Part shown: positions 9,324-50,925 of the stretch, piece by piece
Layout: each line of letters starts with the position of its first letter
Numbering within the stretch: position 1 is the first letter of the stretch
Assembly: GCA_017415165.1 (NCBI GenBank)
Contig: JAFQIY010000016.1
Location: 62,001 to 126,000, forward strand
Length of the DNA: 64,000 nt
From: Oscillospiraceae bacterium
Lineage (GTDB): Bacteria > Bacillota > Clostridia > Oscillospirales > Ruminococcaceae
Direction of reading: 5' to 3'
Made by a program: the position numbers and the translations under genes
Notes under the pieces: generated by a model
Told to the model about the DNA's origin: nothing
Seen by the model: the letters and a program-made list of their open reading frames with translations, nothing else
Databases searched by the model: none

Positions 9324-10334
9324 TTAGAGCAATTTAACTCCCTTTTCTTCACATTCCTTAATCATATCGCTTGGCCATACAGATACCTGCACCTCGCCGA
9401 TATGAGCCTTTTCAAGCAGGAGCATACAAAGTCTTGACTGACCGATACCGCCGCCGATTGTCAGCGGAAGTGTATCGTTTGCGATAAGCTGGTGGTACTC
9501 GTACTTTATTCTGTCCTGCTGACCGCTGATTTCAAGCTGTTTTTTCAGACTTTCAGCGTCAACACGGATACCCATTGAGGAAATCTCGATAGGTGTTTTC
9601 AGCACGTTGTTCCAGATAAGCAGGTCGCCGTTGAGTGCCCAGTCGTCATAGTCAGGCGCACGTCCGTCGTGACGCACGCCGCTTTTCAGCTTGCCGCCAA
9701 TCTGCATAATGAAAACTGTCTTGTACTTCTCGGTAATGAGCCACTCACGCTCCTTAGGAGTCTTGTCGGGGTACATATCCTCAAGCTCCTGAGAGGTAAT
9801 AAAGTAGGTCACGTCACAGATGGTTTCTTTAAGCTGTGGGTAACGGAGGTTAACCTTTCTCTTTGCGTTGGAAAGGGATTTTACAATATTTTCAACGGTA
9901 TTCTTCAGAAAATCAATGTTACGGTTTTCTCTTGTGATAACCTTTTCCCAGTCCCACTGGTCAACGAAAATCGAGTGCATATTGTCAACATCGTCATCAC
10001 GGCGGATAGCGTTCATATCTGTATAGATACCCTCGCCTGCGTTGTAGCCGTAACGGTGGAGAGCCATTCTCTTCCACTTTGCAAGTGACTGCACAACCTC
10101 TGCTTCGTTGTCCATTTCCTTGATGGAGAACTCAACCTTACGCTCAACGCCGCTAAGGTCGTCATTGATACCGCTGTCCTTGCGTACAAGGAGAGGTGCT
10201 GTAACTCTGTCAAGGGTAAGCGCAAAGGAAAGCGCCTGCTGGAATACGTCCTTGATATACTTGATGGCGTGCTGTGTTTCACGGAGTGTCAGCGCAGATT
10301 TATAGCCGTCAGGGATATAAAGCGACTTTGACAT
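9324..10334 (-). CDS. asnA: Aspartate-ammonia ligase
   Basis: 336 residues, close to the family norm of 330. AsnA makes asparagine from aspartate, ammonia and ATP through an aspartyl-adenylate, using a class II tRNA-synthetase-like fold. Recognisable stretches are LRETQHAIKYIKDVF near the N-terminus, DDLSGVERKVEF, HSIFVDQWDWEKVI, GGKLKSGVRHDGRAPDYDDW and, at the end, LTIGGGIGQSRLCMLLL, the ATP-binding motif 3. The frame runs open to 10379, but AAAGGA lies nine bases before the ATG at 10334. It follows asnS by 47 bases and so should share the asparagine-specific T-box. Confidence 0.96.
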   Translation of the reverse strand: MSKSLYIPDGYKSALTLRETQHAIKYIKDVFQQALSFALTLDRVTAPLLVRKDSGINDDLSGVERKVEFSIKEMDNEAEVVQSLAKWKRMALHRYGYNAGEGIYTDMNAIRRDDDVDNMHSIFVDQWDWEKVITRENRNIDFLKNTVENIVKSLSNAKRKVNLRYPQLKETICDVTYFITSQELEDMYPDKTPKEREWLITEKYKTVFIMQIGGKLKSGVRHDGRAPDYDDWALNGDLLIWNNVLKTPIEISSMGIRVDAESLKKQLEISGQQDRIKYEYHQLIANDTLPLTIGGGIGQSRLCMLLLEKAHIGEVQVSVWPSDMIKECEEKGVKLL

Positions 10335-21332: not shown

Positions 21333-23534
21333 TCACTTATTTATATTGACTTTTTTAAGTCTTAAAGCGTTTGAAACAACAGATACGGAGCTGAGACTCA
21401 TTGCCGCCGCACCAATCATCGGATTGAGAAGCGGTCCGCCGAAAATATGAAGCAGTCCCATTGCAATCGGAATACCAAGGGAATTGTAGCCGAATGCCCA
21501 GAACAAATTCTGCTTGATGTTGCGGATTGTTGCCTTTGAAAGGCGGATTGCCTTGCATACGTCACGCAAGTCGTCCCTGATAAGCACGATATCGGCGCAC
21601 TCGATTGCTACGTCCGTGCCCTGTCCCACAGCAATTCCCACATCAGCCTGTGTAAGCGCAACTGCGTCATTGATGCCGTCTCCTGCCATTGCAACAACCT
21701 CGCCTGCCTCCTGCAGATTTTTTATGTGCATTGCTTTTTCCTCGGGAAGCACCTCTGAAATGCAGGTATCAATTCCAAGCTCTGCCGCAACTGTTTTGGC
21801 AGTACGGCTGTTGTCGCCTGTAAGCATAACGGTTTTTATGCCCATTTCTTTAAGCTGTTCAATTGCTTCACGGCTTTCAGTCTTGATTGTATCAGCCGCC
21901 GCAATCATTCCTATGAACACACTATCGGCAGCTGCAAACATCGGTGTTTTTCCTGTGTCCGCCATTTTTTCCGACTCAACAACAAGCTTCATAGGGATAC
22001 CGATTTTGTTTTCGTCCATAAGCCTGCGATTGCCAATGAGAAGCTTTTTTCCGTCAACTGTTGCAGATATTCCACGTCCGTCAAGATTAACATAGTCAGA
22101 CGCCTCGGAAAGCTCAGCGCCGATTTTTTCGGCGTACTCCATAACTGCCTCGCTGAGAGGATGTCCCGAAGCAGCCTCGCCCGAAGCAATCAGGCGAATG
22201 AATTCGCTTTCCTCAATTTTATATGGGACAACATCTGTCAGTGACGGTTTGCCCGCAGTAAGCGTACCTGTCTTGTCAAAAACAACCGTTGTGATTTTGC
22301 ACGCCTGCTCCAAAGGCTGACCGCCCTTGATGAGAATTCCGTTTTCAGCACCCTTGCCCGTGCCGACCATAATTGCTGTAGGTGTTGCAAGTCCCAGTGC
22401 ACAGGGGCAAGCAATAACAAGCACGCTTATCAGAATTGTCACGCAGAATTCCACATCCTTGCCTGCGATTGCCCAGCCAATGCAGGCAATAACCGCAAGT
22501 GCAAGCACTGTCGGCACGAAGTAAGCAGCTATAACGTCCGCAAGACGTGCTATAGGTGCTTTTGTGCCCTGTGCTTCTTCAACGAATTTTATAATTCGTG
22601 CCAAAGCGGTGTCCTCGCCGACCTTTTCGGAGCGGTACTTGACAAAACCGTTCTTGTTAAGGGTTGCGCCGACAACCTTGTCCCCGACCTTTTTCTCAAT
22701 AGGTACGCTTTCGCCCGTCAGCATTGACTCGTCAACAACAGCCGTACCCTCAATGATTTCGCCGTCCACGGCAAAGCTTTCGCCCGAACGTGAAACAACG
22801 ATATCGCCTACCTTGACCTGACTTAATGCAACCTCAAGCTCCTTTTCGCCGCGCATTACAAACGCTGTTTTCGGTGCAAGGTTCATAAGCTTTTTGACCG
22901 ACTCGTCCGTCCTGCCCCTTGAACGTGCTTCAAGGTATTTGCCCATAGTAATCAGTGCAAGAATTGTTGCGCAGGACTCAAAATAGAGGTGTGCATCGGT
23001 CATACCCTGTGTAATCTTGTACATCATAAACATACTGTACACGAATGCCGCACTTGAGCCGAGAGCAATAAGGCTGTCCATATTCGGTGACAGGTGAAAC
23101 AGATTGCGGAAGCCGTCATAATAGAATTTCCAGCCGATAATCATAACAGGCACGGTCAGCGCCAGCTGTACCAGCGCATAATTCATAGCGTTGTGATGCG
23201 GGTCAATTACCGCAGGAAGCGGCATTCCAACCATATGTCCCATACATATCACAAGCAAAGGCAACGCAAAAATTGCTGACAGAATAAGCCTTATCAGCAT
23301 TACCTTTTCGTGGGACATTTTCTGCTTTGCGTTCTTATCAGCAAATGCGTAGCCAGCCTTTACAACAGCCGCTTCAATTTCCTTTGCACCGATTTTTTCG
23401 TACTCAACAGTAAGTGTTTCCGCCGCAAAATTCACGCTTGCATCGGATACTCCGTCAAGCTTTTTCACGAAGCGTTCAACTCTTGAAGCGCAGGCCGCAC
23501 AGGTCATACCTGAAATTTTAAAGCTTTTTTTCAT
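21333..23534 (-). CDS. copA: Copper-exporting P1B-type ATPase CopA
   Basis: 733 residues. One N-terminal metal-binding domain (GMTCAAC), membrane helices, the actuator motif TGES in [15 protein letters not shown], the copper-transport motif CPC in [16 protein letters not shown], the phosphorylation motif DKTGTLT, the nucleotide-domain HP in SGHPLSEAV and the hinge [10 protein letters not shown]. All catalytic motifs are intact, in contrast to the degenerate P-type-like protein at 45 kb. It pumps Cu(I) out of the cytoplasm. GAAAGGA precedes the ATG at 23534. It lies between csoR and copZ. Confidence 0.97.
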
Positions 23535-23549
23535 AGCTGTTCCTTTCAA

Positions 23550-43074: not shown

Positions 43075-43100
43075 GGGTATCGAGAAATTACTCGATACCC
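43075..43100. terminator. Bidirectional terminator
   Basis: Perfect 10-bp stem (43075-43084 with 43091-43100), 6-base loop, T-rich on the plus side and A-rich before it, between the chemoreceptor gene and the convergent Ter operon. Confidence 0.87.
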
Positions 43101-43105
43101 TTATT

Positions 43106-43732
43106 TTATATAATCTCAAAAACTTCACTCATCGGCTTCATCTGCTTTTCACGAGGCACATAAGCTGGCTTACCTACGGGAATTACGCTCATAAGGCGGT
43201 GTCCCTCAGGTGCACCGATGAACTCGTTTATTTCCTCTGCGGAAACAATAGGGTCGTTCATCCAGCAAGCACCAAGTCCCAACTCCTCAGCTTTGAGAAG
43301 CAGATTTTCAACTGCTGCACCAACACTCAGCACGTCGGGATTGCCCAATGCGGAAAGCATTTCGCTGTGTCCGTAACCCTTTGCGGAGTAGTACTCCTCA
43401 ACACGAGGGTCGTGGTACTTCATTTCGGTAAGGTACACCAGAATTACCACAGGTGCGTTCTTGAAAAAGGTTGTCTGCTTCACTCTTGATGCAACGAAAT
43501 TTTCGTCCTCGGCATCGCTGTAAAAGCGGCGTACTCCCCTTTCAACGGCTTCTGCAAGTGCGGAAATCTTTTCGGGAGTCCTGATTGCCACAAACCGCCA
43601 GCACTGGCTGTTGCAGCCGCTTGGTGCGGTTACTGCTGCTGAAACAAGCTGTTCAATCATACTGTCGTCAACGCTGTCAGCAAGGAATTTTCTTATGCTG
43701 CGGCGTTTTTTTATAAGTTCACTGAATTCCAT
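43106..43732 (-). CDS. Nitroreductase family protein
   Basis: 208 residues of the FMN-dependent nitroreductase fold: MEFSELIKKRRSIRKF, with the Arg-Arg-Ser-Ile-Arg FMN motif, then APSGCNSQCWRFVAIRTPEKI, GAAVENLLLKAEELGLGACWM and VIPVGKPAYVP. Enzymes of this family reduce nitro compounds, quinones or flavins with NAD(P)H. The physiological substrate is not clear. AAGGAAG precedes the ATG, which lies 12 bases after the TerD-fusion stop, so it is the last gene of the Ter-type operon and ends at its terminator. Confidence 0.9.
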   Translation of the reverse strand: MEFSELIKKRRSIRKFLADSVDDSMIEQLVSAAVTAPSGCNSQCWRFVAIRTPEKISALAEAVERGVRRFYSDAEDENFVASRVKQTTFFKNAPVVILVYLTEMKYHDPRVEEYYSAKGYGHSEMLSALGNPDVLSVGAAVENLLLKAEELGLGACWMNDPIVSAEEINEFIGAPEGHRLMSVIPVGKPAYVPREKQMKPMSEVFEII

Positions 43733-43744
43733 ATTTTTCTTCCT

Positions 43745-45034
43745 TTATACAACTGTTACGCCGTATCCACGGCAGATTTCTTCAAGAGGAAGTCCGATTC
43801 CCTTGCCTGACGGTATCATTTCCCATATTCCGTCGGTACGCTCAAATGCTACTGCAAGTAGCGTTCTTTGGCGGATATTTTCCGAGACAGGAAGGTGCAT
43901 ATGTACTCCGTTTTCGCAAAGTATGCTGATATCACCCTCTCTTAGTTTGTCGAAAAGGTGGTCAGGGTTGTTGCCGTAAATTGAAAACAACAGCACCATC
44001 ATACTCACATCAGCAGGTACACGTCGGAAATCCACATACATCACACGCTTATCGGGTGCATTGAGATAGGTTACGCTACCGCAGTCGGAATGGTCATTGC
44101 CAAAGAAAATCATACGCTTGTCATCACTGACTCTGCCGCTGATATTAAGCATAAACAGATACGCATCAATATCCATTTTAAGCTCGGATTTTCCCGTCAA
44201 CTCAATCTTATACTGCTTTGGTGCAATCGGAAGCCGCTTGCCAGGTGCGATGAGAACGTCTTCCTCATTATTCTCAACAAGCACTTCATCAATTTCTTCA
44301 AGCACAGGCTCAATAGTTTCAAGCTCAGGCTCTAGCATTGTTGCAAGCTGAACAAAATCAAGATTTTTCAGCATTTCCGAATAAGCCATCGGTGCTTCTC
44401 TGTCAACCGTGTGAAGCATTGCTCCATCGGTAAGTGTATTTTCTGTTCCTGCCGTGCCGCAAAGGATAATCCGTCTTTCAACAGCTGATTTTATGACGAT
44501 ATTTCCGTACAGCATCGAACCGTTTCGGATTTTACCAATATTAACGGTAATGGTGTTGTACCCCTGCGTAAGAGTCTGCACGGAAAGAGAAACTCCGTGG
44601 AAATTACAGCTTATTTCCGCTTCAACGGGCGAATAAATTTCCAATATATATGCGTGCTCCCTCTCAGCTTCAAAGGTACCGATATCAATTATCTTCGGCA
44701 ATCCCCAGAATTGTTCCTCGTCCTGTATACCGAGAATAGCTCCGTTTACTTCTATGTTTGTAAACTTCGTATCGTCATTGCGGCAGAAAACCGATATACA
44801 CTGCTCAGGAGGCAGATTGTTGTTTGTCAGCTCAATTTTAAGATTATCAAGCTGAACACCCTCAGCGTCAACAACAAGTACAGGACCGGAATTGCCCCAC
44901 AGGAGAGAACCATTGCCGTTTACTTTACAGCTCTTGCGCACGATGAACTTTCCTTCAAAATCACCTTTAGGAAGTTCAACTCTGCCTAAGCTGTCAGGAT
45001 TATCAAGCAGCTGCTGAATATCCTTGCTGTCCAA
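43745..45034 (-). CDS. TerD domain protein with N-terminal beta-helix-like region
   Basis: 429 residues from a TTG at 45034, seven bases after GGAGGGTG at the end of the ATPase-like gene; the frame extends to another TTG at 45049 that overlaps that gene. The C-terminal 165 residues match TerD: DIDAYLFMLNISGRVSDDKRMIFFGN, then FRRVPADVSMMVLLFSIYG and IWEMIPSGKGIGL. TerD domains bind calcium in stress-response complexes. Residues about 15-200 look like a right-handed beta-helix (LPKGDFEGKFIVRKSCKVNGNGSLLWGN, then LDNLKIELTNNN). An acidic linker rich in Glu joins them. The fusion is noteworthy. Confidence 0.85.
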   Translation of the reverse strand: MDSKDIQQLLDNPDSLGRVELPKGDFEGKFIVRKSCKVNGNGSLLWGNSGPVLVVDAEGVQLDNLKIELTNNNLPPEQCISVFCRNDDTKFTNIEVNGAILGIQDEEQFWGLPKIIDIGTFEAEREHAYILEIYSPVEAEISCNFHGVSLSVQTLTQGYNTITVNIGKIRNGSMLYGNIVIKSAVERRIILCGTAGTENTLTDGAMLHTVDREAPMAYSEMLKNLDFVQLATMLEPELETIEPVLEEIDEVLVENNEEDVLIAPGKRLPIAPKQYKIELTGKSELKMDIDAYLFMLNISGRVSDDKRMIFFGNDHSDCGSVTYLNAPDKRVMYVDFRRVPADVSMMVLLFSIYGNNPDHLFDKLREGDISILCENGVHMHLPVSENIRQRTLLAVAFERTDGIWEMIPSGKGIGLPLEEICRGYGVTVV

Positions 45035-45038
45035 AAAA

Positions 45039-47066
45039 TCACCCTCCAATAATTGAAATAACCGTTATCGCTGCAAGAAGAACAGCGCACAGTATTCTTA
45101 CAGAAGCAAACATTCTGCAAATATTCGCAAACTTAACTGCACCCGTGCAAAGGTCAGCTGCTGCGCTCAGACCGCATTTATTGGCAGAAGCATCTGAAAT
45201 ACTGCGGATTGATGATGCACACACAAAAGAAGCTATTGCCACATCGGTTTCGTCAAGCATATGAGAGTCGCAGTATTCCGAGCCGATTACACAAGTTTTC
45301 AGTCCTTGGTCTGATGCGGCTCTTACAATACGCATTTTATCCGCTGTGTCTGCATTTACAACTGCTCTTATTTCTGAGAAACGTTTTCTCAACTCGTTAT
45401 CATCCATTTTAGCAAGCTGCTCGGAATTTAAAATTACGCCCTTGCTTTTTTTGCCTGTTTTTTTCAAGGTATATATTACAGTCTCACGACTTGCAGAGGT
45501 GAGCAGAATAGTCCTTACTCCGCTTTTTTCAAGGCTTTCAAGTGCCTCTCCGGTTTCGCTGCACACCTTGCTGTGAACAGTAAGCATTCCGATAAGAGTA
45601 TATGTGCCTGACGGAAGCTTTTCATTCTTGATTACGCGGTCACACACTGCCAGAGCAACTACATCATTTCCTGTCAGTGAAATGGTTGCCGCAAGCTTTA
45701 TTAGTGCGTCCTTGTTTGTGATTTTGCATTTCTTTCCGTCAGCGGAAAAGCTTTCGGAACATTTATTGATTATAAGCTCGGCGCTTCCGCTGATAAATGT
45801 CACAAGCTTACTGTCAAGATTTACGGTAGCTCCGCTTATTCCGCCTTTTTCAGCGCTTGCCTGCTTTTTCACCCTGATTCTTACCGGCACTCTTTTTACG
45901 AAATTGAGAATTGCTCTGTCCGCAGGTGTACCGCCGTGGACAGCATTGTCATTTTCAAGCTGTGCCGTTGAGGTATTGATTACCGCTGTTTTTATAAGGC
46001 TGATGATTTTTTCGTCAACCTCCTCAATTCTGTCAATCTGATTTCCAACGCCGTCAACAAAGCCGTTGACAACACAGCTTTCCTCGGTAAACGCACCTGA
46101 TTTGTCTGCAAAAAGGATTTTCACATCCCTCATATCCGTGAGCACATCAGGTTTGGAAATGTTGATTTTTTTCATTGCAAGGGATTTCATCACACCTGAC
46201 GCAACGGCTTCCGTAATCAGATTTTTTCCGCAAAGACACCCTACTGCCAACACCGCAGCCGCAGCAACCGCTCCTTCAAGCAGACCCTCTGCAAGCTGTC
46301 CTGCAAATGCACCGTAAACCGTACAGAAAATCAGCACTGCCGCCGCACATACTGCACTGACTATGCCGCCTGCACGAATAATTGTGTCAGACTCCTGACT
46401 GTGAATTCTGATGTTGCTCTGTGTTTTTTCTGCCAAAAGGGTATTATCGCCTGTTGCAGTAATTTTCATTGCACCGCTCCCAGCAGTAATAACATAGCCT
46501 TTGTAAAGGCTGTAGGCACTTTTCAATCCCATTGCCCTGTTACCGATAAAAGATGACGGGGGTGTAGTTTTTTCTGCTTTTTCAAGCATACCGAATTCTG
46601 ACTGGTCAACAACAAACTGACCGTCTGCAATAATTCCGTCAGCAGGCACGGCATCTCCTGCGGAAAGATAAACAACATCTCCCACAGCGAGCATTTTTTC
46701 CTCTATGCACTCGGGTTTTGTGCCACGGAGCACAGTATAGCTGCTATGCTTTGCATCGGCGGATATTTCAGAAATTCTTTTTTCTGAAACATAGCTTATA
46801 ACTGCCTCAAGCAATGCACAGAGCACAGCCAAACCCGCAAGCACAAATATCCCCGACACATCGGAAACAGGTGCTGTTACTTCAAGCAGACCGAGAAGCA
46901 GTGCCACAATTTTCAGCATTGCACCTATTGTAAAAAGCTTACAGCTGAGGGAGGTTATTCCTGCCACAATATTTTCAGCAAAATTTATATCAATTGTTCG
47001 CTCATTCAAGCCGTATTTCTGTCTTGAAGCTTCCGCCTCACGTTCAGAAAGACCGGATAAAGACAT
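45039..47066 (-). CDS. Degenerate P-type ATPase-like membrane protein
   Basis: 675 residues with P-type ATPase architecture: cation-ATPase N-terminus (LSGLSEREAEASRQKYGLNE), membrane helices, an actuator domain (VVYLSAGDAVPADGIIADG), a nucleotide/phosphorylation region and two C-terminal helices. Key motifs are eroded. DKTGT reads DKSGA (Asp321 kept), TGES reads GMLE near 159-162, the TM4 motif reads AVGCLCGKN, and GDGxND reads GSEYCD. Transport activity is therefore doubtful; it may be a sensor or scaffold. The reading frame is intact. AGAGGA precedes the ATG. It sits between the kinase and TerD genes of the Ter operon. Confidence 0.87.
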   Translation of the reverse strand: MSLSGLSEREAEASRQKYGLNERTIDINFAENIVAGITSLSCKLFTIGAMLKIVALLLGLLEVTAPVSDVSGIFVLAGLAVLCALLEAVISYVSEKRISEISADAKHSSYTVLRGTKPECIEEKMLAVGDVVYLSAGDAVPADGIIADGQFVVDQSEFGMLEKAEKTTPPSSFIGNRAMGLKSAYSLYKGYVITAGSGAMKITATGDNTLLAEKTQSNIRIHSQESDTIIRAGGIVSAVCAAAVLIFCTVYGAFAGQLAEGLLEGAVAAAAVLAVGCLCGKNLITEAVASGVMKSLAMKKINISKPDVLTDMRDVKILFADKSGAFTEESCVVNGFVDGVGNQIDRIEEVDEKIISLIKTAVINTSTAQLENDNAVHGGTPADRAILNFVKRVPVRIRVKKQASAEKGGISGATVNLDSKLVTFISGSAELIINKCSESFSADGKKCKITNKDALIKLAATISLTGNDVVALAVCDRVIKNEKLPSGTYTLIGMLTVHSKVCSETGEALESLEKSGVRTILLTSASRETVIYTLKKTGKKSKGVILNSEQLAKMDDNELRKRFSEIRAVVNADTADKMRIVRAASDQGLKTCVIGSEYCDSHMLDETDVAIASFVCASSIRSISDASANKCGLSAAADLCTGAVKFANICRMFASVRILCAVLLAAITVISIIGG

Positions 47067-47092
47067 AGACCATATTCCTCTCTTTTGGGAAA

Positions 47093-48562
47093 TTAAATAA
47101 TTCTGACCTTAATCAACATTCCACGCTCATAACGTGAACCGCGGAAAATTGTTCCATCGGTAAGTCTGATTGCCTGACCGGCAGGCACGGGATTACCCTG
47201 AGGTGAAAGCAGACCCTCGGCATTACGGTTAATCAGAAACCACTCGCCGTTGTGACAGCATACATATGCCTGCAGGGATTTATCCGCCTTTTCATCGGCA
47301 AACACATTGCTGTAAAGATGCCATTTGAAAAGGGGCGTATTATTTACAACATCAAGCTCGGAGTAGCTTCTCCACTCGCCGTCGTGACCACGCACCTCAG
47401 AACTGAGTTCAAAGCGCACGATATTTCTGTCAGTAATGTGTGTTCCGCAGAACGGACAGACAGGATTATTTACATCGTGCAGTACAAACCATTTCTTGTC
47501 ACAGGACGGATTTGAACACTTATGCAGTAAATCCCAGGTCTTTACCAGACCACGCTCCCATTCCATTGCAGAAGGGCGCAGGGCAGGGTTATGCAGACCG
47601 TCCACAAAGGCACGCAGGAAAAGATTTTCCATTACAGGACCCAAATCCTTGATTGTGGTTTTCATCGCAGACGGACGATTGGAAGTATCGTCAGGATTTT
47701 CGATAAAGGTTGCCATCGGACCGAGTCCCAGGTAGTCGTCACGTTCTGCGGACTCGGATGAATAAATCTTCGGTCCCATAAGAGGATGACGGAAGAAAAG
47801 ATACTCGTAAATAAGCACAGCAAGGGCGTGCAAATCCGTTACTGAACTCGGAATTTTTCTTCGTGGGTCATTACGGTCAAGCTCCATTGTTGAGAGCACC
47901 TCAGGAGCGATGTAGCCTCGTGTTCCTGCAACCTCAGGCGGAAAAAGTCCAGGTACGACAAGCGTGTCGATATCAATAACAACGCAGTTTCCCGTTTTGG
48001 GGTCGATAAGCACGTTGTTGTTGGACAGGTCGGAATGTGCAAGACCAGCCTGATGCAGTCTGCGTATTGAACGTGCCAGCAGAAGCGACATCTGTATCAT
48101 AGAACGGAAATCGCCAAGCTCATTCTTATTGAGAAAGCGGCGGTTGCTGGACGTAAACCAGTTGCTTTTCTTGTCCTTGCCTTTAAGGTCAAGAAACTGC
48201 GATGCACCCTCCTCAAAGAAAAAGCTTTTGGGGTACGCAGGCGAAACTATGCCGAATTCAGGCAGGACAACAAGGTCGGTAGGCCAACAGAAGCGTCCTG
48301 CAAAATAGCTTGCAAGGCGCTCGTCGTTACCGATTGCACCGCCCTTTGATTCGGGAATAGTCGGGTTGTAACGCCCGATAATAGCTTCAAGACGTGCGGT
48401 CATATTACGGTCGATTTTGTTCGGCTCGTTGAAAAACTGCACAACGTAGGATTTATCAGGTGCAAAATATGTGTATTTCATTCCTCCTCGGGGAGGATTA
48501 TCAGTTATTACATACGGAATTTTTCTTCCGTCAGCAAGGGTTGCTTCACCCATTCTGCTCAT
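47093..48562 (-). CDS. TerY-P type protein kinase with zinc ribbon
   Basis: 489 residues. The kinase domain spans about 25-345: catalytic loop AHSDLSNNNVLID (Asp178), a metal-binding motif reading DID at 197-199 in place of DFG, and GTRGYIAPEVL. A zinc ribbon follows (Cys349, Cys354, Cys369 and Cys372), and the C-terminal 90 residues (GEWFLINRNAEGLLSPQGNPVPAGQAIRLTDGTIF region) look like a divergent FHA domain. Kinase, PP2C phosphatase and vWA protein together make the TerY-P triad described in Ter stress systems. It would phosphorylate Ser/Thr of TerD or other partners. It follows the PP2C gene by 17 bases. Confidence 0.9.
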   Translation of the reverse strand: MSRMGEATLADGRKIPYVITDNPPRGGMKYTYFAPDKSYVVQFFNEPNKIDRNMTARLEAIIGRYNPTIPESKGGAIGNDERLASYFAGRFCWPTDLVVLPEFGIVSPAYPKSFFFEEGASQFLDLKGKDKKSNWFTSSNRRFLNKNELGDFRSMIQMSLLLARSIRRLHQAGLAHSDLSNNNVLIDPKTGNCVVIDIDTLVVPGLFPPEVAGTRGYIAPEVLSTMELDRNDPRRKIPSSVTDLHALAVLIYEYLFFRHPLMGPKIYSSESAERDDYLGLGPMATFIENPDDTSNRPSAMKTTIKDLGPVMENLFLRAFVDGLHNPALRPSAMEWERGLVKTWDLLHKCSNPSCDKKWFVLHDVNNPVCPFCGTHITDRNIVRFELSSEVRGHDGEWRSYSELDVVNNTPLFKWHLYSNVFADEKADKSLQAYVCCHNGEWFLINRNAEGLLSPQGNPVPAGQAIRLTDGTIFRGSRYERGMLIKVRII

Positions 48563-48579
48563 AAGAAACCTCCGGAAAT

Positions 48580-49779
48580 TTATGTGTTGATATTGACAAT
48601 CAGAAGCGTTCTGTCGTCGAAAGAGCCACGCTCAACGTAGTTGTCCAGCCAGATTTTCAGCATTTCGTCCTTGTCCTTGTCGTGCACGATATCAAAGGCT
48701 GCAAGGGACGCTTTCTTCTGTGCGTACTTGTCCGCCCACAACTGTTCAAGTGACATATTTGTTTCTGCAAGGACATTCTTGGTGTACTGCAAAGCATACT
48801 TCACGTCACCGTCATTTACCCAAGGGTACTCAACAGGCTGTGGAGCTGTTACGTCAGTAATAAGCTCAGGCTCTGCAATTTCAAGGATATTATTCAGCTT
48901 CAAATCAAGCACAAGGCGAAGAAGCTGTGTGTTGTTAGGGTAATAGTCGTCAGCAACGCCGTCCGTCATAAGCATAAGCGTTGTCAGCTTTCCCCTGCGG
49001 ATTTTTGTACGGCTCATAAGGCTTTCGGGATTTCTGAACTGTTCCGAAGTAAGGAACTCAGTTTCGCCCGAAAAGCTGCCGCCGTCCGCTGTGCCGAGAA
49101 GAACAAGCGGATTTGCGTTATTTTCGTCAACTGCCGCAATCATACCGTCGCCAAGCTGAATAGAAGCAGTAAGATATTCCTTGCCGTTAGCAGTTTCCAC
49201 GGGAATAACCACGGAAGCGAGGAGCGTGCAGGAAAAGTCCTTCAATTCAGGCTTTCTGCCTGCTGCTTCTTCAAATTCGGGATAGTCCTTTCTCTTTTCA
49301 AATGCCGCTTCAACTGCTGCAAAAGCCTCCGCATAGCTGTCACGAAGCATTGCTGCAATCTGACCGCACATTACACCGAAATCAGCGTTGTCAAGGGGCA
49401 GACTCAATATTTCAAGATAGTTCGGATTATCACGCTTTATAGCGGAAAGCCGTGCCTTGACGTACTTGATAACCGCCTCGCAAGCTGCCTTTGCACCAAT
49501 TCGTGAGAACAGCTTTGAGCCTGCACCGTCAGCGGCGGCAGCGATAACCGTACCCTCGAAAATTTCAAAAGCATAGAAGTCGTCGCAGTTTGTGCCGTCG
49601 TGCTTATGCTTTTTGCCGCGGACTGTTGCACCGAAAACCTCAAAGCCGCTTTCATTTGCAGATGAACAGCTTGCTTCGGGGTAAGGCTCAGGACTTTCAG
49701 GCACGGGGTTGTACTTCCACATTGCCGCTGTGTGAGCGGTTACGTCATTATCCGAAAGCTTGTTAATGTTATTTTCCAT
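48580..49779 (-). CDS. PP2C family Ser/Thr phosphatase
   Basis: 399 residues. The PP2C metal-binding residues are visible: NCDDFY (Asp66 and Asp67), AAADGAGS (Asp84), LMTDGVADDYY and GSFDDRTLLIVNI near the end. An N-terminal extension of about 45 residues rich in Pro/Ser precedes the domain. It should reverse phosphorylation by the adjacent kinase, forming with the vWA protein the TerY-P triad. An insertion of about 80 residues between the last two metal motifs includes EYPWVNDGDVKYALQYTKNVL. GGAGGTAACG precedes the ATG; it starts 12 bases after the vWA gene. Confidence 0.92.
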   Translation of the reverse strand: MENNINKLSDNDVTAHTAAMWKYNPVPESPEPYPEASCSSANESGFEVFGATVRGKKHKHDGTNCDDFYAFEIFEGTVIAAAADGAGSKLFSRIGAKAACEAVIKYVKARLSAIKRDNPNYLEILSLPLDNADFGVMCGQIAAMLRDSYAEAFAAVEAAFEKRKDYPEFEEAAGRKPELKDFSCTLLASVVIPVETANGKEYLTASIQLGDGMIAAVDENNANPLVLLGTADGGSFSGETEFLTSEQFRNPESLMSRTKIRRGKLTTLMLMTDGVADDYYPNNTQLLRLVLDLKLNNILEIAEPELITDVTAPQPVEYPWVNDGDVKYALQYTKNVLAETNMSLEQLWADKYAQKKASLAAFDIVHDKDKDEMLKIWLDNYVERGSFDDRTLLIVNINT

Positions 49780-49791
49780 CGTTACCTCCGA

Positions 49792-50433
49792 TTACGGAAC
49801 AATTACGAAGCCCTGTGGCGGTGGTGGGAGTTCGATATTTGCACCGGGCTTGGAGTCAAGGCTCTTGGAGGACATTTTTACGGAGCTGGAAACCCACGCA
49901 AAGAACTGTGCAAGGTCGCCTGCGGAAAGGGTGTTCATCATAAGCACGCAGTCGGTGATTTCCTTGAGCACCTTTGTATCAGCGTAAGCACCAGCAGCAC
50001 AAGCGATGATGTTTGCAGGCTTTGTGCTCTTGAGCATTGCAGCAGCCTGACGCCAATCGTCAGTTGGTGCGCCGTCTGTAAGAATGAACACGAGAGGACG
50101 CCAGTCACCCTTCTGAGTTTCGGTAGACTTTCTTACCTCAGAGCGGATGCACTCGTTGAGAAGCTGCAAAGCCGCACCGAGAGCTGTTGCACCGCCTGCT
50201 GCAAGAGTTGGTTCTTTGAAGAGCATAAGCTCAGTCAGCGGAGTAACCTGTCTTGCGCTGGAGTTGAATGTGATAACGGAGAGGTACGCTGTTTCGAGAG
50301 CCTGAGGGTCGCCTCTGAGCTCAGAAATAAGCGCACGGACGCCGTGCTTTACTGCTTCGATAGGGTCGCCTGCCATTGAACCTGAAACGTCAAGGAGGAG
50401 ATAAACGGGAAGTCGTCTTGAAAATTCTGACAT
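49792..50433 (-). CDS. TerY-like von Willebrand factor A protein
   Basis: 213 residues of a vWA domain with a complete MIDAS metal site: DVSGS at 15-19, Thr83 in GGATALG and Asp120 in LTDGAPTDD. The compact size and the opening RRLPVYLLLDVSGSM match TerY proteins of tellurium-resistance-type stress systems. The C-terminus is proline-rich (ELPPPPQG). It is the first gene of the operon, with AAAGGCAGGG before the ATG and a near-perfect promoter 60 bases upstream. Such proteins are thought to recruit metal-bound or phosphorylated partners. Confidence 0.94.
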   Translation of the reverse strand: MSEFSRRLPVYLLLDVSGSMAGDPIEAVKHGVRALISELRGDPQALETAYLSVITFNSSARQVTPLTELMLFKEPTLAAGGATALGAALQLLNECIRSEVRKSTETQKGDWRPLVFILTDGAPTDDWRQAAAMLKSTKPANIIACAAGAYADTKVLKEITDCVLMMNTLSAGDLAQFFAWVSSSVKMSSKSLDSKPGANIELPPPPQGFVIVP

Positions 50434-50491
50434 AATATTGCCCTGCCTTTCTATTTAAAAAGATATAATTTGCTCATTTTAACATAATAAA

Positions 50492-50520
50492 ATTATACCT
50501 CTTTTTGTGAGAAATGTCAA
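50492..50520 (-). promoter_or_regulatory. Promoter of the Ter-type operon
   Basis: Exact consensus on the minus strand: TTGACA (50515-50520), a 17-base spacer and TATAAT (50492-50497). It should drive the six co-directional genes from 50433 down to 43106. Confidence 0.92.
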
Positions 50521-50925
50521 TTAAAATTTAGTTACAGCAACCGTTGGTTGCAGCTTCTTCTTTTCATTATTTAACAAAATTCGGATAGTTCTTGATACTT
50601 GATAAATATTGACACATCTGACACCATTGTTACACACCTTTTGAACGGTGTATGCTGATTTCCCTGTCATTCTTGGAAAACAACATATACACATTTCGCA
50701 TTCATTCAAGTTAAGTTTATCTTTAGGGAAAATATGTATTTGTGGATAAATTATTTTCAACTCGGCAAGTAGTCTTAAACATAATTTATCCCATTGATTT
50801 TCATTTCCAACATAAAATTTTTCCATACCTTCTTTTGCAATGCTTTCCAATTCTAATTTCAACACATCTGACAACAGCTGAGTTTCTTTAACTGCATTGT
50901 GACCTATTAATAATACACTTTTCAT
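50521..50925 (-). CDS. SLOG/DUF1273-like protein
   Basis: 134 residues, AT-rich. It begins with a Rossmann-like strand and loop (MKSVLLIGHNAV), then SIAKEGMEKFYVGNENQWDKLCLRLLAELKIIYPQIHIF and later CFPRMTGKSAYTVQKVCNNGVRCVNIYQ. This is the pattern of SLOG/YpsA-like domains (G-H-R/N, E-G---F--G----D, L---YP-I, S/T-G---A------G--V-N), which bind nucleotide-derived ligands and often occur in bacterial defence or stress operons. Assignment is by pattern only. It is divergent from the Xre gene and ends just before the Ter promoter. Confidence 0.6.
   Translation of the reverse strand: MKSVLLIGHNAVKETQLLSDVLKLELESIAKEGMEKFYVGNENQWDKLCLRLLAELKIIYPQIHIFPKDKLNLNECEMCICCFPRMTGKSAYTVQKVCNNGVRCVNIYQVSRTIRILLNNEKKKLQPTVAVTKF

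Follow-up and report, generated by a model that had tools for sequence, protein, structure and literature searches.

The subject of this analysis is a six-gene operon of the TerY-P type at positions 43106-50520 of the window, a stretch of 64,000 nucleotides from an Oscillospiraceae bacterium (assembly GCA_017415165.1, contig JAFQIY010000016.1, positions 62,001 to 126,000). A Ca2+-type P-type ATPase normally lies 3' of the kinase gene in operons of this kind. In the window and in related reduced operons, we propose, this ATPase is now a pseudoenzyme that is kept by selection and serves the phosphorylation switch encoded beside it as a scaffold or receptor in the membrane; we give this reading a probability of roughly 0.55. 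Alignments and locus comparisons show that key residues of the pump and the operon's free TerD genes have been lost, and that the phospho-switch and the membrane protein have been retained. By the same comparisons, operons of this kind usually bear a live-looking Ca2+-type pump, from which the dead form is derived.

Gene order among relatives

Relatives were collected by searching genome contigs with a profile built from the kinase alignment; the best 80 of the 120 found were kept and, together with the window, gave 81 loci. Classes were set by ATPase length alone, either 600-720 or at least 850 amino acids (aa). Short ATPases define 23 reduced loci, the window included, full-length ATPases define 40 full loci, and 18 loci are of other kinds; L118, where the contig end truncates the ATPase at 717 aa, was set aside. 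The short proteins, 675-715 residues long, fall into 17 of g1-type, to which the window protein belongs, and 6 of g3-type. Among the 18 other loci, the contig breaks off inside the ATPase gene in seven, three have no ATPase on a contig that ends about 4.2 kb or less from the kinase start, and L115 has the beta-helix-TerD gene and no ATPase. Metagenome-assembled genomes of Oscillospiraceae, Ruminococcus or Clostridia account for most of the loci; Peptococcaceae, Selenomonadaceae and Anaerobacterium contribute some. Of 396 genomes sampled in the host family, 40 carry the kinase at E 1e-100; they represent 13 of the 126 genera.

The window operon consists of six open reading frames, all on the minus strand, with intergenic gaps of 12, 17, 26, -11 and 12 bases. 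A sequence-only reading of the window had described these gene families, their order and position and the short gaps between them, and the open reading frames and Pfam matches agree with it. It had also staked the operon on gene order being conserved in relatives, and the order is kept among them. The ATPase gene lies immediately 3' of the kinase gene in all 23 reduced loci and in 37/40 full loci, and in every reduced locus the beta-helix-TerD gene follows immediately 3' of the ATPase, the two frames staying open. Upstream of the kinase, vWA is found in 21/23 and PP2C in 22/23 reduced loci, the exceptions (L049, L051) being cut by contig ends. By this gene order, vWA-PP2C-kinase-ATPase forms a TerY-P operon that is conserved and for the most part clostridial. 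The nitroreductase, which had been counted as a component, is better regarded as accessory: it occurs in just 4/23 reduced loci and 0/40 full loci, the reduced loci L049 and L050 stopping at the operon's end.

Loss of pump residues from the short ATPase

The ATPase of the window (45039-47066, minus strand, 675 aa) matches the E1-E2_ATPase family (PF00122, 1.9e-16) and ends after M5. Twenty aligned positions, whose roles in live pumps are partly covered by a review (PMC10654040), were scored in the 40 full and 23 short proteins. All 20 are kept in 40/40 full-length ATPases. In the short proteins seven of them are missing throughout (0/23, with 0/17 g1 and 0/6 g3): the Glu of TGES, the Pro of PEGL, the closing Thr of DKTGT, the Phe of the N domain, the first of the two Asp in GDGxND, the Asn of M5 and the Asp of M6. 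Others survive in part: the DKTGT Lys in 13 of the 23 short proteins, the DKTGT Gly in 18, the MITGD Thr in 17, the KGA Lys in 4, and the M4 (PEGL) Glu and the M6 Asn in 3 each. The phosphorylation motif of the window protein reads DKSGA in place of DKTGT. Judged by motif, the short ATPase thus falls short of an active P-type ATPase at DKTGT, TGES, GDGxND, the M4-M6 ion site and the full membrane domain, and the residue-by-residue comparison bears out the earlier description of a membrane protein that has lost its catalytic motifs.

The proteins are also truncated. The g1-type ends after M5, so that M6-M10 are missing, and the g3-type ends after M6 and is without M7-M10. The A, N and P domains of the P-type ATPase fold are nonetheless recognisable by sequence profile: a profile of the 17 g1-type proteins matches the Listeria Ca-ATPase lmo0841 at 1.1e-47 (positions 7-633 of 680), and a g3-type profile matches it at 8.4e-19 (positions 3-633 of 681).

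It could be reasoned that such a protein keeps a transport- or channel-like function outside the standard cycle and that the operon still controls an ion flux. By hydropathy the window protein is predicted to have membrane helices in its M1-M4 and M5 regions, and the g3-type proteins keep the phosphorylatable Asp. The ion-site residues of M4, M5 and M6 are largely lost, however, the helices beyond M5 or M6 are missing, and conservation in the membrane regions is among the lowest in the protein, which makes this explanation distinctly unlikely.

Persistence of the short ATPase

A stop-free match to the short ATPase is found in 20/21 genomes of the host genus and in 10/10 of those at least 90% complete; three of the 20 matches are fragmented by contig ends, and the sole miss is a genome that is 78% complete. 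The ratio of nonsynonymous to synonymous substitution rates (dN/dS) of the ATPase is 0.09-0.22 in 10 reduced pairs versus 0.02-0.07 in 8 full pairs, values that are rough because several dS exceed 1 and the pairs share members. For the kinase the ranges are 0.02-0.08 and 0.02-0.05, and for all four of vWA, kinase, PP2C and beta-helix-TerD they are alike in the two classes. The ATPases of the window and of its nearest relative, L046, are 62% identical, yet both frames are open, which argues that the reduced state is old.

Conservation along the protein is uneven. Regional identity was compared in 14 g1 and 6 g3 short proteins and the 40 full ones; equal identity does not mean equal rate, because the full set is phylogenetically deeper. 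Mean identity of the N-terminal segment is 51-53% in the short proteins versus 53% in the full ones, and that of the N domain 48-56% versus 46%. The phosphorylation region, by contrast, stands at 32-44% versus 92%, and M5 with the tail at 32-37% versus 84%; the remaining helices are likewise less conserved.

These values bear on the simplest alternative, a decaying relic whose frame is open just through recency. The short ATPase does evolve several times faster than the full pumps, and it is absent from some related loci. Its stop-free state across the genus and its dN/dS, on the other hand, suggest that it is not simply decaying, the divergence between the window and L046 speaks for age, and the N domain is conserved to the level of full pumps. 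By these measures the short ATPase is under purifying selection, and we regard a relic as very improbable.

Between the window and L046, dS is 1.28 for the ATPase and 1.38 for beta-helix-TerD, and 0.24, 0.63 and 0.72 for vWA, kinase and PP2C, respectively. By this measure, the operon's ATPase and beta-helix-TerD look as if they had a history separate from that of the other three genes.

Whether the short ATPases arose once or twice is answered differently by different genes. A tree of vWA, PP2C, kinase and beta-helix-TerD (25 loci) places the full-length L065 with the g3-type (98/94), and a single short clade has a p value of 0.025 in the approximately unbiased test (p-AU); in a tree of vWA and kinase (38 loci) the same grouping receives 95/89, with a p-AU of 0.105. 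The differing C-terminal ends of g1 and g3 also point to two origins. In the ATPase tree the short proteins all form one group (100/100) and a grouping of g3 with L065 is rejected (p-AU 7.8e-6), a result that carries a long-branch warning; some N-domain letters are common to g1 and g3. Trees built with just one short type at a time do not reject a tie to L065 (p-AU 0.11 and 0.09). The neighbouring genes thus speak for two origins and the ATPase's own tree for one. The short proteins of the single-type trees group among triad-linked pumps and apart from the pump of a second ter locus on the same contig (L028, see below), so it appears that they are not copies of that second ATPase.

TerD genes and the second ter locus

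The gene that follows the ATPase (43745-45049, minus strand) encodes the beta-helix-TerD protein. Its TTG start at 45049 was assigned mechanically, and the true start may lie downstream. The earlier notion of a beta-helix-TerD fusion is firm for the TerD part (1.1e-16 at residues 288-429; family profile against the solved TerD structure 2kxt, 2.1e-26) and weaker for the N-terminal, beta-helix part, which resembles NosD at 9.5e-5 in Pfam and at 1.2e-4 in a profile comparison with a solved NosD. As far as contigs extend, the fusion is present in 23/23 reduced and 29/40 full loci. Its 54 aligned members, from both classes, all lack the loop GDNxxGxGDGDDE, which is present in two canonical TerD proteins of L028 used as reference and which we take to be the Ca2+-binding loop of canonical TerD.

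Free TerD genes separate the classes: they lie downstream of the kinase in 39/40 full loci versus 0/23 reduced loci. Genome-wide searches covered 24 reduced genomes (22 with short-ATPase loci, plus those of L057 and L075, whose contigs end within the ATPase gene) and, for both TerD and the Ter pump, 24 genomes out of the 40 with full loci. In 23/24 reduced genomes TerD matched just once, in a frame as long as that of beta-helix-TerD, and in 23/24 full-locus genomes three to eight matches were found. L065 is intermediate, with an intact ATPase and a single TerD.

The host genome (2.6 Mb, 93% complete), from a relative of animal-gut species, carries a canonical ter locus, L028 (G000:C11:42500-62000), about 50 kb from the operon; the locus shares the contig but falls outside the window. 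It encodes three TerD proteins with the GDGDDE loop, TelA, YceG, StiP-PELOTA, PRTase-TRSP, a C-C bond lyase and, with its motifs intact, a P-type ATPase of 895 aa. Family scans whose controls matched found no TerB or TerC in the operon or in the 93%-complete genome, as had been stated for the operon; the three canonical TerD genes and the intact Ter-linked ATPase elsewhere on the contig are a correction to that reading. The description of the operon as self-contained fails for the window genome and holds for 23/24 reduced genomes, which have no other TerD. The L028-type pump is present in 24/24 full-locus genomes searched and, among the 24 reduced genomes, only in that of L046 (98% identity), so that on this distribution the locus or its pump may be a late gain. 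A live Ter pump working in trans was considered and is ruled out as a general rule, 23/24 reduced genomes having no pump of the L028 type.

The same counts touch the idea that the short ATPase is a regulatory subunit that pairs with another live P-type ATPase under kinase control. For one P-type ATPase, MgtA, a dimeric form is reported (PMC10925321), and the window genome holds further P-type ATPases. The lack of an L028-type pump in 23/24 reduced genomes only weakens the idea, as the comparison is limited to that pump type; G216, one of those 23, has a 33%-identical pump, which was taken as a different Ca-ATPase. We consider such a subunit unlikely.

The phosphorylation switch

Three genes precede the ATPase on the minus strand. 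The vWA protein (49792-50433, 213 aa; PF00092, 1.7e-13) has intact residues of the metal-ion-dependent adhesion site (MIDAS). It is followed by a PP2C-type phosphatase (48580-49779, 399 aa; PP2C_2, PF13672, 3.1e-35) and a Ser/Thr kinase with a C-terminal four-Cys zinc ribbon (47093-48562, 489 aa; Pkinase, PF00069, 4.7e-11). The catalytic His, Asp and Asn, the DID motif and the four zinc-ribbon Cys of the kinase are invariant in 81/81 proteins, which upholds the zinc-ribbon kinase of the sequence-only reading. Among proteins long enough to align, the motif Asp residues of PP2C are conserved in 20/20 reduced and 37/37 full loci. MIDAS residues are conserved in the 21 reduced and 38 full vWA proteins, apart from a Thr missing in one full protein. 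By motif, the active sites of the triad are intact in reduced and full classes alike. Metal binding had been suggested for the operon more widely. It holds for the zinc ribbon and fails beyond it, where most ATPase ion-site residues and the TerD loop are missing.

The kinase has Gln where the usual beta-3 Lys might be expected (VVQFF) and an invariant Lys in RGGMK, each in 81/81 proteins; presumably the pattern recalls kinases that draw this Lys from the glycine loop. An FHA domain suspected by eye at the kinase C-terminus was rejected, as no domain match was obtained. For the vWA protein, Pfam gives VWA-type families only, and a genome scan for TerY_C was silent, as was its control.

Stand-alone antiphage systems that are TerY-P-like and whose kinase has an OB-fold are mentioned in the accessible part of PMC11090510, citing Gao 2020, and the locus might be an antiphage module of this kind with the dead pump as membrane sensor or effector. 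In two kinases the C-terminal 130 residues gave no Pfam match to an OB-fold; the zinc ribbon is present. PADLOC is silent for all proteins but the kinase, which matches 15 families (best MkoA, 1.9e-8); these were taken as kinase parts of other systems. Presence of the ATPase in 20/21 genus genomes is unlike a patchy defence island, and a partial kinase match was found in just one phage record. We consider an antiphage role quite improbable.

Proposed role of the pseudo-ATPase

The short ATPase bears on how the TerY-P triad of Ter systems is coupled to the membrane. In the proposed scaffold or receptor role, the pseudo-ATPase would no longer transport and would sit in the membrane, where its conserved cytoplasmic N-terminal segment and N domain might hold the beta-helix-TerD protein and the kinase/PP2C/vWA switch at the envelope. 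The complex could then be shifted by a stress signal that arises at the membrane, and the balance between kinase and phosphatase would tip.

Several observations weigh against this proposal. The putative link between ATPase and triad consists of gene order and a weak distance correlation; the correlation, on which we do not rely, has a partial r of 0.59 for ATPase/beta-helix-TerD and 0.25-0.39 for ATPase/triad genes. In seven of the other loci, with at least 8.5 kb of sequence past the kinase start, PP2C and kinase are kept and neither ATPase nor TerD is found there; vWA is kept too in three of the seven, and the switch may therefore work without an ATPase anchor. In L088 the PP2C is split over two frames and beta-helix-TerD is short. 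The DKTGT Asp survives in 4/17 g1-type and 6/6 g3-type proteins (10/23 short versus 40/40 full), the DKxR Lys in 20/23, the second Asp of GDGxND in 17/23 and the M4 Glu in 3/6 g3-type proteins, so residual chemistry is possible by sequence. The roughness of the dN/dS estimates counts on the same side.

If the scaffold or receptor role is right, a bacterial P-type ATPase would have been maintained as a pseudoenzyme. Evolution has here performed a natural separation, in which pump chemistry and the operon's free TerD proteins are gone and the phospho-switch stays. Should the dead pump still be needed for signalling, its non-transport role could be tested without confounding ion flux. A broader claim, that there is a class of bacterial P-type-ATPase pseudoenzymes in which former ion pumps serve a Ser/Thr kinase-PP2C switch as transmembrane receptor or scaffold and the calcium-handling half of the Ter operon was given up, possibly twice independently, is put forward tentatively, at somewhat less than even odds.

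Signals and neighbouring genes

A sigma-70-type promoter, TTGACA-17-TATAAT, lies at 50492-50520 on the minus strand and, as the sequence-only reading had it, is a full consensus match (12/12). By eye, a promoter-like element that has the 17-base spacer and departs from the consensus in no more than two bases was seen upstream of vWA in 6/11 relatives (L046, L047, L048, L053, L056, L077); L065, also among the 11, offers just 45 upstream bases. The operon ends, after the accessory nitroreductase-family gene (43106-43732, minus strand; PF00881, 1e-35), at a terminator-like hairpin (43075-43100, minus strand, scored on the plus strand too) with a 10-pair stem and a T-rich tail. From this layout the operon is likely a single transcription unit. 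Weaker matches mean little, because the scan gave more sites than expected, both promoter-like (26 versus 11.6) and terminator-like (21 versus 8.2).

Immediately upstream of the promoter is a 134-aa open reading frame (50521-50925, minus strand) with a weak YpsA/SLOG-like match below the cut-off (E 0.097). Elsewhere in the window (21333-23549, minus strand) a further P-type ATPase of 738 aa has an intact DKTGT and a CPC motif and is of heavy-metal type by motif. Among the relatives, L103, L110, L122 and L107 have PP2C-kinase pairs in whose vicinity neither vWA nor ATPase nor TerD was found, the contig of L107 beginning close upstream; in the first three the gene preceding PP2C encodes a 281-aa protein. 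In L070, a locus without ATPase, a short gene (9546-9929) that is PIN-like by eye lies between PP2C and kinase.

Comparison with known systems

The TerY-P triad reportedly goes back to Anantharaman et al. 2012. The operon shares with it a vWA protein, a PP2C and a Ser/Thr kinase with a C-terminal zinc ribbon, in adjacent genes that adjoin TerD-family genes, and the triad that had been recognised from the sequence agrees with the definition in the accessible part of PMC11090510. The kinase is 41-42% identical over its length to plasmid kinases, and the two of these that were examined sit in canonical ter loci. In the plasmid loci of Azospirillum and Conchiformibius the vWA protein is annotated with a TerY-C metal-binding domain, whereas the 213-aa vWA protein of the operon has no TerY-C match; the domain, seen in these two canonical loci, is not demanded by that definition, as far as the accessible text goes. 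The same part of the source gives a metal-sensing phosphorylation switch as the literature's hypothesis for TerY-P. A literature search on Ter genes with kinase or ATPase returned nothing recognised as this operon, judged from search results rather than full texts.

In open-licence literature, with most subscription papers outside it, no paper joins 'P-type ATPase' with 'pseudoenzyme' or contains two of four pseudo-ATPase phrases; a looser match on pseudo-ATPases does yield papers, among them PMC10654040 in its accessible part. Human TMEM94/ERMA is P-type-ATPase-like, as is the operon protein, but it is eukaryotic and has another context. Its status is disputed: one study (PMC12134183) reports no ATPase activity, a missing TGES motif and binding of a nucleotide analogue, and PMC13322241 calls it a true Mg2+ ATPase. 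Listeria lmo0841 (LMCA1) has the same fold by profile along the A, N and P domains; the operon ATPase differs in lacking key catalytic and ion-site residues as well as M6-M10 (g1) or M7-M10 (g3).

Canonical TerD shares its domain with the operon's fusion protein, which differs in being fused behind a beta-helix-like region and in lacking the GDNxxGxGDGDDE loop. Finally, the membrane slot of the operon is filled by a P-type-ATPase-like protein in place of TerC. In the Conchiformibius plasmid locus TerC lies directly 3' of the kinase, and the slot may thus belong to membrane proteins of varying kind.

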